A stretch of 63,815 nt of DNA from Chitinophagaceae bacterium (GTDB taxonomy: Bacteria; Bacteroidota; Bacteroidia; Chitinophagales; Chitinophagaceae): NCBI GenBank assembly GCA_025449645.1, contig JANWIY010000027.1, forward strand, positions 1-63,815, read 5' to 3'. Below the pieces are notes generated by a model. That model made no database searches. It was not told the origin of the DNA and saw only the letters and a program-made list of their open reading frames with translations. Both the position numbers and the translations under genes were made by a program. Shown here piece by piece: positions 52,331-63,082 of this stretch. Within the stretch, counting starts at the first letter, position 1. Every line of letters starts with the position of its first letter.

Positions 52331-52924
52331 CTAAAATTGAATGAAATTTTTTAAGATATGCTCGCCGGTAGCTGCGCTTTTTTCCGGATGGAACTGAACA
52401 CCATAGAAATTATTCTTATGAAGACCTGAACTATATGATTCTCCATAATCCGTTTTTGAAATGGTGTCAATCCCTGATCCGGCATAAAATCCATGAACAA
52501 AATAACAATAACTATTTTCCGCCACATTCCGGAACAGCGGATCCTTAAGATCATAAATTGTATTCCAACCTATCTGGGGCACTTTGAGCGTATGATCTTC
52601 TGCAGAATTAAACTTCTTCACTTCTTCTTCGAAAATTCCAAGGCATTCCGTATCATTTTCTTCTGAATAGGTACACATCAGCTGCAGGCCTAGACAAATT
52701 CCCAGCACGGGTTGCTTCAGATTCCGGATCAGGTGGTCCAGTTCTCTTTCCCGCAAATAATTCATTGCCGTGCTTGCTTCGCCCACCCCCGGAAAAATGA
52801 CCTTGTCAGCCGACTGGATGACAGAAGGATCATCGGTAACTGTTGCTTCCACGCCAATGCGCTCCAGTGCAAAGAGGACGGACTGGATATTGCCTGCATT
52901 ATATTTTAAGATGACCAGTTTCAG
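52331..52924 (-). CDS. hisH: Imidazole glycerol phosphate synthase, glutaminase subunit, with apparent CTG start
   Basis: 197 residues. The class I amidotransferase nucleophile is in VLGICLGLQLM near residue 83, with the His and Glu in FYGVQFHPEKS. The first canonical start (GTG at 52852) would cut off the first strand of the fold. The frame is open upstream, and CTG at 52924 gives a full-length N-terminus, xKLVILKYNAGNIQSVLFALERIG, matching family HisH. This CTG overlaps the trpA stop codon as CTGA, where ATGA would be usual. HisH supplies ammonia to HisF. Confidence 0.9.
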   Translation of the reverse strand: MKLVILKYNAGNIQSVLFALERIGVEATVTDDPSVIQSADKVIFPGVGEASTAMNYLRERELDHLIRNLKQPVLGICLGLQLMCTYSEENDTECLGIFEEEVKKFNSAEDHTLKVPQIGWNTIYDLKDPLFRNVAENSYCYFVHGFYAGSGIDTISKTDYGESYSSGLHKNNFYGVQFHPEKSAATGEHILKNFIQF

Positions 52925-58408: not shown

Positions 58409-59818
58409 TTATAATGTTGCTGCGAGTTGGATAGCCCTTTTTAATGCTCCAAGTTTATGATTCACTTCCTCAAGTTCGTTTACGGGTTTGCTGGCCGCAA
58501 CCACCCCGGCTCCGGCCTGGTAGGTTAGTGTATTGCGCCGGCTCAGGAGACTCCTGATCATGATCGCCTGGGTGCATGCTCCGTCAAATCCGATAAAGCC
58601 GATACAACCTCCGTAGTAACTTCTCGGCGTCGGTTCATATCCCGCAATCAGTTCCATAGCCCGGATCTTGGGTGCGCCACTCAGGGTGCCTGCAGGGAAA
58701 GTAGCCGCCAGCAACTCAAAGGGATTGCTGTTTTTAGCCAGCTTCCCTTTTACTTCGCTCACCAGGTGGATTACATGGGAATAATACTGAACCTCACGGA
58801 AATGGGTAACCGAAACATCATCACATTTCCTGCTCAGGTCATTCCTGGCAAGATCCACGAGCATCACATGTTCCGCATTTTCCTTGGCATCTTTCACCAG
58901 GGTGTCGGCCATTTCCTTATCCACTTCGTCATTCCCCGTCCTCCGGCAGGTTCCGGCAATGGGATGCATTACAGCTTTTCCATCCCTGATCAGCACCTGA
59001 GATTCGGGGGAAGAGCCCATCAGCCGGTAATCACCATAATCAAAATAGAATAAATAAGGGCTGGGATTAACATTGCGGAGAGCCCGGTAAACATTGAATT
59101 CATCACCAATGAAGGACAGCTGAAACCGCCGGCTAAGCACAATCTGAAATACATCTCCGCGAAGGCAGCTTTTAATTCCTTTCTCAACCATCTCCATGTA
59201 TTCCTTATCCGTCAGGTTTGTTCTTTCCTCTCCGATCGCAAGGAAAGGATAAACAGGCACATCTTTGGAACGGATCAGCGACTCCACAAGGGGCAATTCA
59301 CTTTCAACGTCTGCTACCTGGTTCTCGCATAAATACAACTCGTCTTTAAAATGATTAATGGCGATAACGTATTGGTAGAGGCGATAGCGCATGAGAGGAA
59401 TAACGGGTGCATCTGTGGTCTCGGGCAGATTGATCCTGTCAAAAAATCTTACCGCGTCAAAACTTGTATATCCAAAAAGGCCTTGTGCCGTTTTCACAGG
59501 CTTCTCATCCGCGGTTTCAACATCAAAATGCTGCATATAATCCCAGAGCATACCAGGAACTTCAGCGGATCCCAGGCTTATCTTTTCTGTCGGTCTACCG
59601 GGATATTTAAACTCCATCCGCAGGTTATCGGAAATCTCAATTCCGCCTATGGCATGTATGCAGATAAACGAATAACTGTTTTCCGCAGCGTGGTAATCCG
59701 TGCTTTCAAGGAGCACCGTATCGCGGAACCGGTCGCGTAGCCTGAGGTAAATACCCACGGGCGTGTATACGTCGGAAAGTATTTTTTTGTAAATGGTCTT
59801 TAACTGGATCTTTTTCAT
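58409..59818 (-). CDS. trpE: Anthranilate synthase component I
   Basis: 469 residues. The N-terminal part has the tryptophan feedback-site motif LLES (TVLLESTDYHAAEN) near residue 35. The chorismate-binding domain has FQIVLSRRF, HPIAGTCRRTG, LVDLARNDL, FPAGTLSGAPKIRAMELI and YGGCIGFIG. The ATG at 59818 is preferred because the upstream in-frame ATG at 59869 overlaps the T run of the terminator; GAGG lies just before 59818. Confidence 0.97.
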   Translation of the reverse strand: MKKIQLKTIYKKILSDVYTPVGIYLRLRDRFRDTVLLESTDYHAAENSYSFICIHAIGGIEISDNLRMEFKYPGRPTEKISLGSAEVPGMLWDYMQHFDVETADEKPVKTAQGLFGYTSFDAVRFFDRINLPETTDAPVIPLMRYRLYQYVIAINHFKDELYLCENQVADVESELPLVESLIRSKDVPVYPFLAIGEERTNLTDKEYMEMVEKGIKSCLRGDVFQIVLSRRFQLSFIGDEFNVYRALRNVNPSPYLFYFDYGDYRLMGSSPESQVLIRDGKAVMHPIAGTCRRTGNDEVDKEMADTLVKDAKENAEHVMLVDLARNDLSRKCDDVSVTHFREVQYYSHVIHLVSEVKGKLAKNSNPFELLAATFPAGTLSGAPKIRAMELIAGYEPTPRSYYGGCIGFIGFDGACTQAIMIRSLLSRRNTLTYQAGAGVVAASKPVNELEEVNHKLGALKRAIQLAATL

Positions 59819-59869
59819 AAAGCCTCGCTGAATGATGTTTTTATTCCCGCCCTGCTTCATCCGCCACAT

Positions 59870-59896
59870 AAAAAAAGCCCCGGATAAAACCGGGGC
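59870..59896 (-). terminator. trp attenuator terminator
   Basis: On the minus strand GCCCCGG (59896-59890), a six-base loop, CCGGGGC (59883-59877), then seven T. It lies 51 nt before trpE. Its 5' arm can pair instead with CGGGGC at 59936-59931 inside the trpL coding region, giving the antiterminator. Confidence 0.9.
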
Positions 59897-59924
59897 CTGA
59901 TATGTTTATAACATAGCTATCGCA

Positions 59925-59987
59925 TTACGCGCCCCGATCGGAGTTTGTATGCCACCACCATGTATTATTTATGAGCTTTTTTGTCAT
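59925..59987 (-). CDS. trpL: trp leader peptide with three consecutive tryptophans
   Basis: 20 residues: MTKKLINNTWWWHTNSDRGA. The three Trp codons are 59960-59952. The antiterminator arm (CGGGGC, 59936-59931) falls on codons 18-19, five to six codons past the Trp run. A ribosome stalled at Trp would leave it free, and one that reaches the stop codon (59925) would cover it, so the terminator forms. The peptide begins 45 nt after hisB. The imperfect box GATATTTG lies 6 nt before its ATG. Confidence 0.85.
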   Translation of the reverse strand: MTKKLINNTWWWHTNSDRGA

Positions 59988-61289: not shown

Positions 61290-61316
61290 CACATTTCCAC
61301 ATTTTCACATTTTTAT
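61280..61316. repeat. ATGTGGAAATGTG words at the cytochrome c 3' end
   Basis: ATAATGTGCACATTTCCACATTTTCACATTTTTATC is partly self-complementary (GTGCAC centre). It overlaps the cytochrome c gene 3' end, giving its last codons (EIKM) and its TGA stop. Confidence 0.55.
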
Positions 61317-61757
61317 CTCCGCCCTAACCGTTTTAACTTCAGAAGGCTTAATGGCAGAAGCCTTATTTCCGAAACTGCGCCTTACATAAGTGAGTACATT
61401 GGCAATTTCAGTATCCGTCAATTCCGGATGCGGGGGCATCGTGTTCTGAAATTTTTGGGCTTCAATTTCAGCGTGTTGATAATTTCCTTTAATTATACAT
61501 TCGATCAGGTCCCGCTTATTTCCCAAAACGCTCCTGGTTTTGACCAGGGAGGGGTTCTTATTGGATGAGCCGGCTCCGTCTGCCAGGTGACAGGAAATAC
61601 ACAGACCGGAATATACGACCTGCCCGGCCTCAATTGACATTTTCAAAGGAGATTTCTGAGCTATGCAATGATTTGCTTCCTGTGCCGACACTGCTCCAGG
61701 ATTAATAAATGCGGCAGCAAAAAAAAGGATAAGCAGTGTTTTTTGGTTAATGATCAT
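61305..61757 (-). CDS. Periplasmic c-type cytochrome
   Basis: 150 residues. Signal peptide ending GAVSAQ; haem-binding CISCH near residue 55 with SGLCISCHLADGAG; the distal Met is probably in NTMPPHPEL. It overlaps the upstream dehydrogenase gene by 4 nt (ATGA), so it is its likely electron acceptor. Its C-terminus is encoded by the ATGTGAAA word array. Confidence 0.92.
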   Translation of the reverse strand: MIINQKTLLILFFAAAFINPGAVSAQEANHCIAQKSPLKMSIEAGQVVYSGLCISCHLADGAGSSNKNPSLVKTRSVLGNKRDLIECIIKGNYQHAEIEAQKFQNTMPPHPELTDTEIANVLTYVRRSFGNKASAIKPSEVKTVRAEIKM

Positions 61758-63082
61758 TTTGCTTTATAGGTTATTTTCCATATGGTTCCCATGGAATCGT
61801 CTGTTACGTAAATAGAGCCGTCCGGGCCTTCTGCCAATCCGCAGGGACGGTGTACTGTACGGCCTGATGCCACCTGATCCGCTGTTCCGCCAAACCCATT
61901 GGCAAATATTTCCCATTTCCCTGAAGGCTTGCCATTCTTGAAGGGAACAAATGCAAGAAAGAACCCTTCCTGCGGCTCGGGAGCACGGTTCCAGGAACCG
62001 TGAAAAGCCACAAAAGCACCATTCTTATATTTTTCCGGGAACTGGCTTCCTGTGTAAAAGAGCAATCCATCAGGTGCAATGTGGGCAGGAAAAACCACTA
62101 CAGGATTTATCGCATCGTTTCCTCCTGTTTTCTTGCCATCGCCTCCGTATTCGGGAGCAAGGATTTTCTTATTCTGGAACCCGTCGTAATAAATATAGGG
62201 CCAACCCGCATTATCTCCTTTGTGCAATTCATACATACATTCCGCAGGAAGTTCGGCATTTTGCTTCGTTGTATATAATTTTGGAAATATGGACCCCAGC
62301 TGGTCCCTTCCATGCTGCATAACAAACAATGTATTGGTTACGGTATTCCAATCCAGACCCACCACGTTCCTTAAACCGGTGGCATAACGCAAACCATCCT
62401 TGTAGGTCTGGTTGGGTTTATCCGCCTTAAACTGCCAGATGCCTGCTGCAGAATCCAATACGGGACATGGTTTCATTCCCATCGAACCTGTTTGCCTGTC
62501 ATCTACCTGGCAGGAATTGGAAAAGGCACCAATGTTTACATAAATATTGCCATCATTATCCAGGCGGATTGCTTTAGGCTCATGCTCATTTCGGGCAATG
62601 AGACCAGTGACTATTTTTTCAGGGCTTTTTGGATTGCTTACCGTACCATCGCTATTCAATTTATACCTGAATACCTCCTCATCGGAAGAAGCATATAAAT
62701 AACCGTTCTTAACTGCAATTCCGGTTCCGGTAAAATCTCCGAATTCGGCTTGCTGATCGGCTACTCCGTCGCCATTGTTATCTTTCAACTGAACAATTGT
62801 ACCGCCGTTTTTTTTTGAGGCCAGTTTCACATACACATAGCCGCTGGGTGTTACTGCGATATGACGGGCTTTGCCAAGTCCACCTGCAAAAATCGTTGCA
62901 CTAAATCCAGCCGGCATCGTTACGGAAACATCCGGTGACGGAATTTCAGGTTTGGATACGGAGAGGGTATCGGCTGCTGCGGTCGCCGCAGAATCCATGC
63001 TGTTTGTGTCCTTGGGTTTTCCGTTGCATGATGCCGCGATCAGGATGATCATGCAGCAGAGTTTGTTGCTGAACTGTTTCAT
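61754..63082 (-). CDS. PQQ-type sugar (sorbosone/glucose) dehydrogenase-like lipoprotein
   Basis: 442 residues. N-terminal signal with lipobox (IAASC). A six-bladed propeller follows: GFSATIFAGGLGKARHIAVTPSGYVYVKL, LRYATGLRNVVGLDWN, MQHGRDQLG, FVAFHGSWNRAPEPQ and VHRPCGLAEGPDGSIYVTDDSMGTIWKI, as in L-sorbosone/soluble glucose dehydrogenases. It oxidises an unknown sugar in the periplasm and passes electrons to the cytochrome encoded downstream. Both genes stand inside the histidine cluster, between hisC and hisB. Confidence 0.9.
   Translation of the reverse strand: MKQFSNKLCCMIILIAASCNGKPKDTNSMDSAATAAADTLSVSKPEIPSPDVSVTMPAGFSATIFAGGLGKARHIAVTPSGYVYVKLASKKNGGTIVQLKDNNGDGVADQQAEFGDFTGTGIAVKNGYLYASSDEEVFRYKLNSDGTVSNPKSPEKIVTGLIARNEHEPKAIRLDNDGNIYVNIGAFSNSCQVDDRQTGSMGMKPCPVLDSAAGIWQFKADKPNQTYKDGLRYATGLRNVVGLDWNTVTNTLFVMQHGRDQLGSIFPKLYTTKQNAELPAECMYELHKGDNAGWPYIYYDGFQNKKILAPEYGGDGKKTGGNDAINPVVVFPAHIAPDGLLFYTGSQFPEKYKNGAFVAFHGSWNRAPEPQEGFFLAFVPFKNGKPSGKWEIFANGFGGTADQVASGRTVHRPCGLAEGPDGSIYVTDDSMGTIWKITYKAK

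Follow-up and report, generated by a model that had tools for sequence, protein, structure and literature searches.

A predicted ribosome-mediated trp attenuator with a WWW leader peptide in Chitinophagaceae, with similar leaders in other Bacteroidota

Attenuation by a translating ribosome is textbook knowledge, with most of its known cases in Proteobacteria and Actinobacteria. In the window analyzed here, a stretch of 63,815 nt from a Chitinophagaceae genome, a first-pass annotation placed such an attenuator between hisB and trpE, with a short leader ORF carrying three consecutive Trp codons. This raises the question of whether the trp genes, which here lie between two halves of a his operon, are controlled by translation of a leader peptide, and whether relatives share the arrangement. 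The genes concerned are as follows.

hisB, 61172-60033, minus strand: directly upstream, in the first half of the his operon; NCBIfam NF003937 above cut-off
trpE, 59818-58409, minus strand: first gene under the proposed regulation; best match NCBIfam trpE_most, below cut-off (401.4 vs 517.7 bits)
trpG, trpD, trpC, trpF, trpB and trpA, 58360-52921, minus strand: assigned by NCBIfam
hisH, hisA, hisF and hisIE, 52920-50236, minus strand: directly after trpA, forming the his operon's second half; NCBIfam matches of hisH and hisA above cut-off

We set the trpE start at 59818 and not at the longer ORF start at 59869, because many relatives align from residue 1 of the shorter version. NCBIfam matches were above cut-off for trpG (at the level of a subfamily), trpD, trpC, trpB, and trpA; the best match of trpF, phosphoribosylanthranilate isomerase, was below it (155 vs 215 bits), and hisF and hisIE were named from their ORFs rather than from the family scan. 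The same gene order recurs in relatives: trpA is followed on the same strand by hisH and hisA in eight of nine family genomes checked, and by hisF too in seven, the stretch from the eighth ending within hisA; for the ninth (G070), the stretch used contained no match. Because the trp genes lie inside the his operon, hisHAFIE are probably co-transcribed from the attenuator, which would put part of the histidine pathway under the control of tryptophan.

Within the same cluster, the expected N-terminus of HisH (52331-52920; LVILKYNAGNIQSV...) starts by eye at the end of trpA with no ATG, GTG, or TTG in view, and the first listed start, a GTG at 52852, would remove some 20–25 residues. Between a hisC-like ORF and hisB, ORFs resembling cytochrome c and sorbosone dehydrogenase by eye occupy 61305-63082, inside the his cluster.

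The spacer from the hisB stop codon to trpE (start 59818) is 217 nt long on the minus strand and holds both the leader ORF and the terminator. Its parts are listed in the order of transcription.

Leader ORF, 59987 (ATG)-59925, minus strand: MTKKLINNTWWWHTNSDRGA, 20 codons plus TAA, kept in relatives
Region 1, 59963-59940, minus strand: the Trp-codon strand, including CUCC, which pairs with GGGG (MFE fold and helix counts)
Trp codons, 59960-59952, minus strand: TGGTGGTGG, three in a row, the proposed sensor; with little or no variation among the 76 rows of alignment A1
Antiterminator 5′ strand, 59936-59931, minus strand: CGGGGC within the leader ORF (alignment pairing counts and fold model)
Region 2, 59935-59911, minus strand: GGGGC of the ORF tail, the stop codon, and the post-stop strand (MFE fold and helix counts)
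Regions 3 and 4, 59896-59877, minus strand: intrinsic terminator hairpin GCCCCGG-TTTTAT-CCGGGGC, with arms at 59896-59890 and 59883-59877 (letters, MFE fold, and A1 counts)
Terminator U-tract, 59876-59870, minus strand: seven T (letters)

The letters bear out the core of the first-pass annotation, namely a 20-codon ORF with three consecutive TGG codons, a terminator whose stem starts 28 nt after the leader stop codon, and a CGGGGC in the ORF tail that is complementary to the terminator 5′ arm. Thus trpE is preceded by tandem codons for the amino acid that the operon produces, and an intrinsic terminator precedes the first structural gene. Among 20,000 dinucleotide shuffles of the 217-nt spacer, none produced an ATG ORF of 8–34 codons containing WWW; conservation is a stronger argument than chance in shuffles.

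These parts very likely form a transcription attenuator of the classical ribosome-mediated type, with charged tRNA-Trp as the signal sensed. Their order is the classical one, with the WWWHT..S strand as region 1, the segment from GGGGC to the post-stop strand as region 2, and the terminator arms as regions 3 and 4; region 2 pairs with region 1, while its GGGGC, together with C59936, pairs with region 3. We infer the start site, the stalling, and the read-through with its tryptophan dependence from this layout. RNA polymerase would start a few nucleotides before the leader ATG. When tryptophan is short, a ribosome would stall on the three Trp codons and cover region 1, leaving the GGGGC of the ORF tail free to pair with the terminator 5′ arm once this is made, and with the antiterminator formed, transcription would proceed into trpEGDCFBA and probably through hisHAFIE. 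When tryptophan is plentiful, the ribosome would reach the stop codon and cover the GGGGC, so that the terminator forms. With no ribosome at all, the Trp-codon strand is predicted to pair with region 2 in most modelled relatives, which would make termination the default.

We counted pairing in an alignment (A1) of 76 family leaders of the GGGG type, and the counts are valid for such leaders only. Ten loci had failed the WWW/WWH pattern, and 20 of the other 96 were dropped by hand as near-duplicate, truncated, or divergent, rewired Chitinophaga-type leaders among them; the rows, in which the Trp codons scarcely vary, were thus picked for WWW or WWH. Of 680 terminator cells, 95.0% were paired (slid controls ≤59.7%), and six of nine pairs showed two-sided changes; for the antiterminator, 80.2% of 455 cells were paired (slid controls ≤69.1%), and three of six pairs showed such changes. 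The 1:2 helix, which joins the Trp-codon strand to the ORF tail and post-stop strand, was paired in 86.0% of 1286 cells (slid controls 27.9–56.2%), and its apical part, CUCY:GGGG, in 94.8% of 288 (slid controls ≤82.3%). Two-sided changes occurred at four of its 17 pairs, and one slid version has five; changes in this helix are mostly one-sided because Trp codons cannot vary. For each of the four, none of 500 shuffles attained the observed share of paired cells. Counts of pairs that change on both sides were matched in 15 of 500 shuffles for the terminator, 50 for the antiterminator, 30 for the 1:2 helix, and 187 for its apical part, and the pair types with two-sided changes in 46 of 500 (1:2) and 167 of 500 (apical).

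With a 1:2 helix so conserved, the earlier view that the geometry needs no separate pause hairpin is wrong for the family, where the helix includes the regulatory codons; in the window the helix is weak before the terminator 3′ arm is made. A small TATGTT/AACATA hairpin that had been noted in the antiterminator loop is present in the letters (59915-59901), but its conservation is not supported, with pairing in 57.6% of 455 cells of the 76 family sequences vs up to 51.5% in slid controls, and no more two-sided changes than shuffles give. The top pairs of APC mutual information on A1 include terminator pairs and the 1:2-helix pair 30-85; the highest-ranking pair of all, 58-62, resembles an artefact of register in the GGGG run, and several unrelated pairs of columns reach similar scores. 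Single-sequence complementarity, a weak test, reached p ≤ 0.05 between ORF tail and terminator arm in 30 of 100 family and 10 of 43 other leaders, and for 1:2 in 73 of 100 and 16 of 43, respectively. A pseudoknot reading of the 1:2 helix vs the antiterminator was dropped, as the CUCY:GGGG pairing puts the GGGG itself in region 2.

We then modelled folding in 81 of 100 family leaders, those with a recognizable G-run and C-run, assuming a ribosomal leading edge 15 nt from the first base of a Trp codon and 12 nt past the stop codon. Across the 81 sequences, the distance from the last Trp codon (first base) to the G-run is 16–22 nt (median 19), and that from the G-run to the stop codon 4–9 nt (median 8); with this spacing, a ribosome on Trp leaves the run free, whereas one at the stop covers it. 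Under the assumed 12–15 nt footprint, a ribosome on the first or last Trp codon left the G-run free in 81/81, and the freed run paired with the terminator 5′ arm at >0.5 in 81/81 before the 3′ arm exists. At the stop codon the ribosome covered the run in 81/81, and the antiterminator count of 0/81 there is a consequence of the assumed footprint, not of folding. Without a ribosome and before the 3′ arm, the 1:2 helix exceeded 0.5 in 53/81 leaders and the antiterminator in 24/81, the window among the latter. When the full-length RNA is folded at equilibrium, the terminator prevails even if a ribosome is stalled (mean 0.93–0.98), and the antiterminator exceeded 0.5 in the complete transcript in one state only, with the ribosome on the first Trp codon (4/81); the switch must therefore be kinetic, as is usual for attenuators. 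Spacing and conserved pairings thus support the earlier statement that the geometry fits the classical stall/antiterminate logic.

Upstream of the leader, a promoter of the Bacteroidota sigma-A type is predicted.

−33 element, 60025-60022, minus strand: predicted, TTTG, 20 nt before the −7 box (letters)
−7 element, 60001-59994, minus strand: predicted, GATATTTG, one mismatch to TAnnTTTG (letters)

The consensus given for the phylum is TAnnTTTG at about −7 and TTTG at about −33 (PMC7366714). In the window, TTTG-N20-GATATTTG ends 6 nt before the leader ATG, and this spacing predicts a near-leaderless transcript with a 5′ UTR of about 3 nt. Such a start is unusual for the phylum: 5′ UTRs of <10 nt make up about 3.7% in B. 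thetaiotaomicron (PMC7366714), and leaderless mRNAs 5.5% of those with mapped starts in F. psychrophilum (PMC9723704). Among family leaders with enough upstream DNA, 84 of 99 have a TTTG ending 4–9 nt before the leader start and 72 of 99 a second TTTG 26–30 nt further upstream; in other families, the same boxes were seen in 17/42 and 10/42, and operons that begin with trpB (families f11 and f101) show a wider promoter-to-leader spacing where any box is visible. A pattern search of the window's own genome for near-leaderless promoters gave 83 matches vs 39 in a reversed control and was too noisy to use, and the window's own −7 box does not fit the search pattern. In a genome of the same genus (L024:3012-3186), the leader is immediately preceded by tandem GATAAGATGAAA repeats, with no TTTG box visible in the 85 nt examined.

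The check that the first-pass annotation had called for, on Trp codons and pairings in relatives, was run and did not refute the attenuator reading. TrpE was found in 209 of 294 family genomes, and upstream DNA was taken for the best 30 of these 209 genomes and the best 80 named loci, giving 110 loci that represent the closest relatives and not an even sample; the nearest trpE neighbors with a name belong to Chitinophagaceae or Chitinophagales. Removal of duplicates over 175 nt (L031, L035, L036, and L037; L031 is identical to L004, from the window's own genus, over the 175 nt compared) and of L108, which had no upstream DNA, left 105. A leader with WW or W-x-W followed by an intrinsic terminator was called by script at 99 of these 105 usable trpE loci, the window included; the other six (L087, L093, L094, L097, L098, and L107) carry by eye a single-Trp leader of the NNGWH or NTGWH type. 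Single-Trp leaders, at these six loci as at L158, L161, L163, and L180, keep a terminator-like hairpin by eye. In Chitinophaga-type leaders (L096, L099, L101, L103, L104, L105, L110, L204, L187, L189, L191, L192, and L193), WW(W)H or WRWH is kept and terminator and antiterminator differ, with CUGUGUUACAG-like sequence matched by eye to CUGUUACACAG in the terminator.

A covariance model, R1, scored this site at 99.8 bits in the window's own genome, where the next match had 37.2 bits and no second trp attenuator of this type was found with the model. Across 345 genomes of the phylum, 73 had matches with E ≤ 0.001, and scores of at least 70 bits occurred only at sites of the window's own family. 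The matches inspected at 38–52 bits (L125-L146) were a mixture of loci with and without WWW leaders, and the model had no match in the own-family genomes G014, G031, and G155; for both reasons, R1 was not used to estimate prevalence.

Leader-like ORFs before other amino acid genes were also seen in the genus. Upstream of hisG in the window's own genome (L252, G000:C90), a His leader, MKIFLTIHHHHTLPNR, is followed by a terminator-like hairpin (by eye), and His-rich leaders are present at six of seven hisG loci of the genus (L252 and L253-L257 among them). Aspartokinase loci of the genus carry Thr/Ile-rich leader ORFs such as MIRLSKHIITIPAISRTIGGTIIISTTTL in five of the six cases L268-L273 (L268, L269, L271, L272, and L273), possibly a thr attenuator.

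Beyond the family, a class-wide sample gave TrpE-like matches at 77 places in 72 of 198 genomes. Upstream DNA was taken for 58 places, 57 outside the family and one inside; the 19 left out were G000, the first G004 place, contig-end or partial places in G657, G676, G631, and G771, and 13 weak, paralogue-like matches. The script called a leader with two or more Trp codons, followed by a terminator, at 43 of the 57 loci; these represent 20 families of the class, or 21 when that of the window is counted. At L149 and L170, a WW ORF is present though rejected by the start rule of the script, and four class loci (three in f73, one in f55) have a single-Trp ORF by eye; no such leader was seen at the class loci L157, L162, and L183, and the L150 contig is too short to judge. 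In the four f11 and f101 loci, trpE follows trpB, and a leader (MRTILVNTYWWWHSVQLTRS and similar) with a terminator after it lies upstream of trpB in 4/4, so in the trpB-first operons sampled the leader accompanies the gene that heads the operon.

We further examined 36 loci hand-chosen to spread over families; 13 of them belong to the class and 23 to other classes of the phylum. Within 400 nt, 13/13 class loci and 16/23 loci of other classes have a WW or W-x-W leader (shuffle rates 0.8–2.7% over the four sets of loci); the remaining 7 of the 23 have no such leader within 400 nt. The script recovered 28 of these 29 extra leaders and called a terminator after each, L294 and L297, from GC-rich genomes, being among the few doubtful cases. 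The stricter WWW motif occurs in 87/104, 24/54, 12/13, and 12/23 upstream stretches of the four sets, 135 of 194 in total, with a shuffle rate of 0.0000 in each set.

The letters of the pairing change between lineages. Five of six leaders in f64, outside the family, have W-R-W, and in several families GUGAACAGC-like sequence matches GCUGUUCAC by eye; other lineages appear to use the same kind of pairing in other letters. Among 21 family representatives, a leader's own terminator arm had a median rank of 6, where 11 is expected, which is a modest effect. The antiterminator shares the 5′ arm of the terminator and excludes it; outside the family, this pairing is seen only as family means, with mean z below zero for the antiterminator in 18 of 21 families and for the 1:2 helix in 20 of 21 (about a quarter of family leaders taken at random and mononucleotide shuffles, in the rank and z tests alike). 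It is quite possible, though we stop short of favoring it, that these elements form a phylum-wide, probably ancestral Bacteroidota family of trp attenuators that Rfam does not recognize, that is often near-leaderless, and that in Chitinophagaceae gates hisHAFIE by tryptophan through a conserved his–trp supraoperon.

Other explanations of the spacer differ in what the terminator, the RNA, or the peptide would do. The terminator might merely end the hisB transcript, with a promoter in the spacer driving trp constitutively and an incidental ORF; hisB does lie directly upstream in the window and within 700 nt on the same strand at 29 of 103 family loci. The predicted promoter, however, is upstream of both leader and terminator, so the terminator would act on the trp transcript itself, WWW leaders are as widespread as described though hisB is not within 700 nt at 74 of the 103 family loci, and the leader also precedes trpB in trpB-first operons, all of which makes this account exceedingly improbable. 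We give equally little credence to read-through being set by another regulator (a T-box, a TRAP-like protein, or a riboswitch) with the ORF only keeping the region translated: we found no point in its support, the window gave no match in a search at Rfam gathering level, and Trp_leader (RF00513) had the highest bit score in the region searched at a relaxed threshold (19.4 bits vs a cut-off of 41, E 0.18).

A stronger contender, though still unlikely, is a two-state attenuator in which read-through is the default without translation, termination requires a ribosome at the stop codon, and the 1:2 helix has no function here. Without a ribosome and before the 3′ arm, the window favors the antiterminator over the 1:2 helix (0.96 vs 0.03), and the antiterminator exceeds 0.5 in 24/81 family leaders, the window included. 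The earlier view on the pause hairpin may for this reason be right for the window sequence alone, where the modelled 1:2 helix is imperfect and the antiterminator wins. On the other side, the 1:2 helix is transcribed first, its pairing is conserved, and it pairs at 0.74 in the full transcript of the window. The peptide itself could also act, by TnaC-like nascent-chain stalling on free tryptophan or in trans like peTrpL of Sinorhizobium meliloti. It is unusually conserved in the family (often N-N/K-x-WWW-H-T-N-S-x-R-G-L), and the Asn three residues before the first W (85/98 family and 23/42 other leaders) lies outside the pairings tested in the family; RNA pairing nevertheless accounts for the codons of WWWHT..S and of RG. 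to the stop, and the residue after the W run varies outside the family (Q 12, H 9, L 8, S 5, and F 4 of 42), which leaves a peptide-based mechanism very unlikely. We therefore retain the classical attenuator as the preferred reading.

On this reading, the trp genes are probably expressed only when tryptophan is scarce, and cross-control of histidine genes by tryptophan is predicted. A trp attenuator of this kind recurs across many families of Bacteroidota, with the RNA logic kept and the pairing sequences differing between lineages. The element provides a covariance model for one family, accounts for short ORFs left unannotated ahead of trp operons, and offers a natural case of near-leaderless initiation coupled to transcription.

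The mechanism itself, classical attenuation, is already known, and the Bacteroidota trp element would be the new part. Among the titles and abstract openings listed in the literature searched, none pointed to a description of a Bacteroidota trp attenuator. A 2010 survey by Lopatovskaya and colleagues, cited in PMC4833913, may already include Bacteroidetes. The first-pass remark that attenuators are less explored in this phylum is fair, though leader-peptide attenuation there is not wholly unreported: work on Flavobacterium psychrophilum, of the same phylum, offers in general terms strong clues for it upstream of amino acid operons and describes new 5′ elements at pheA and hisG conserved in Flavobacteriaceae (PMC9723704). 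The parts of that work consulted do not name trp and contain neither covariation nor a phylum-wide survey, and the word "tryptophan" is absent from its main text (PMC9723704). Another study mentions short ORFs, within long 5′ UTRs, that recall leader peptides (PMC7366714), and leader genes in Bacteroidetes have been counted among those of other phyla for another purpose (PMC4833913).

The closest known systems are the E. coli-type attenuators (RF00513), which share with the window's element a short ORF with tandem Trp codons, regions pairing as 1:2, 2:3, and 3:4, and an intrinsic terminator before trpE. In contrast to them, the element described here falls below the RF00513 threshold, carries its antiterminator strand in the tail of the leader ORF, has a leader predicted to be near-leaderless, and belongs to another phylum and a his–trp operon context. 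The trpLE(G) leader of S. meliloti likewise encodes consecutive Trp codons, and its transcript starts with the trpL ATG, close to the arrangement predicted in the window (PMC7298713); S. meliloti, however, is an Alphaproteobacterium with a 14-residue peptide, and trans roles of peptide and leader RNA are reported there (PMC7298713).
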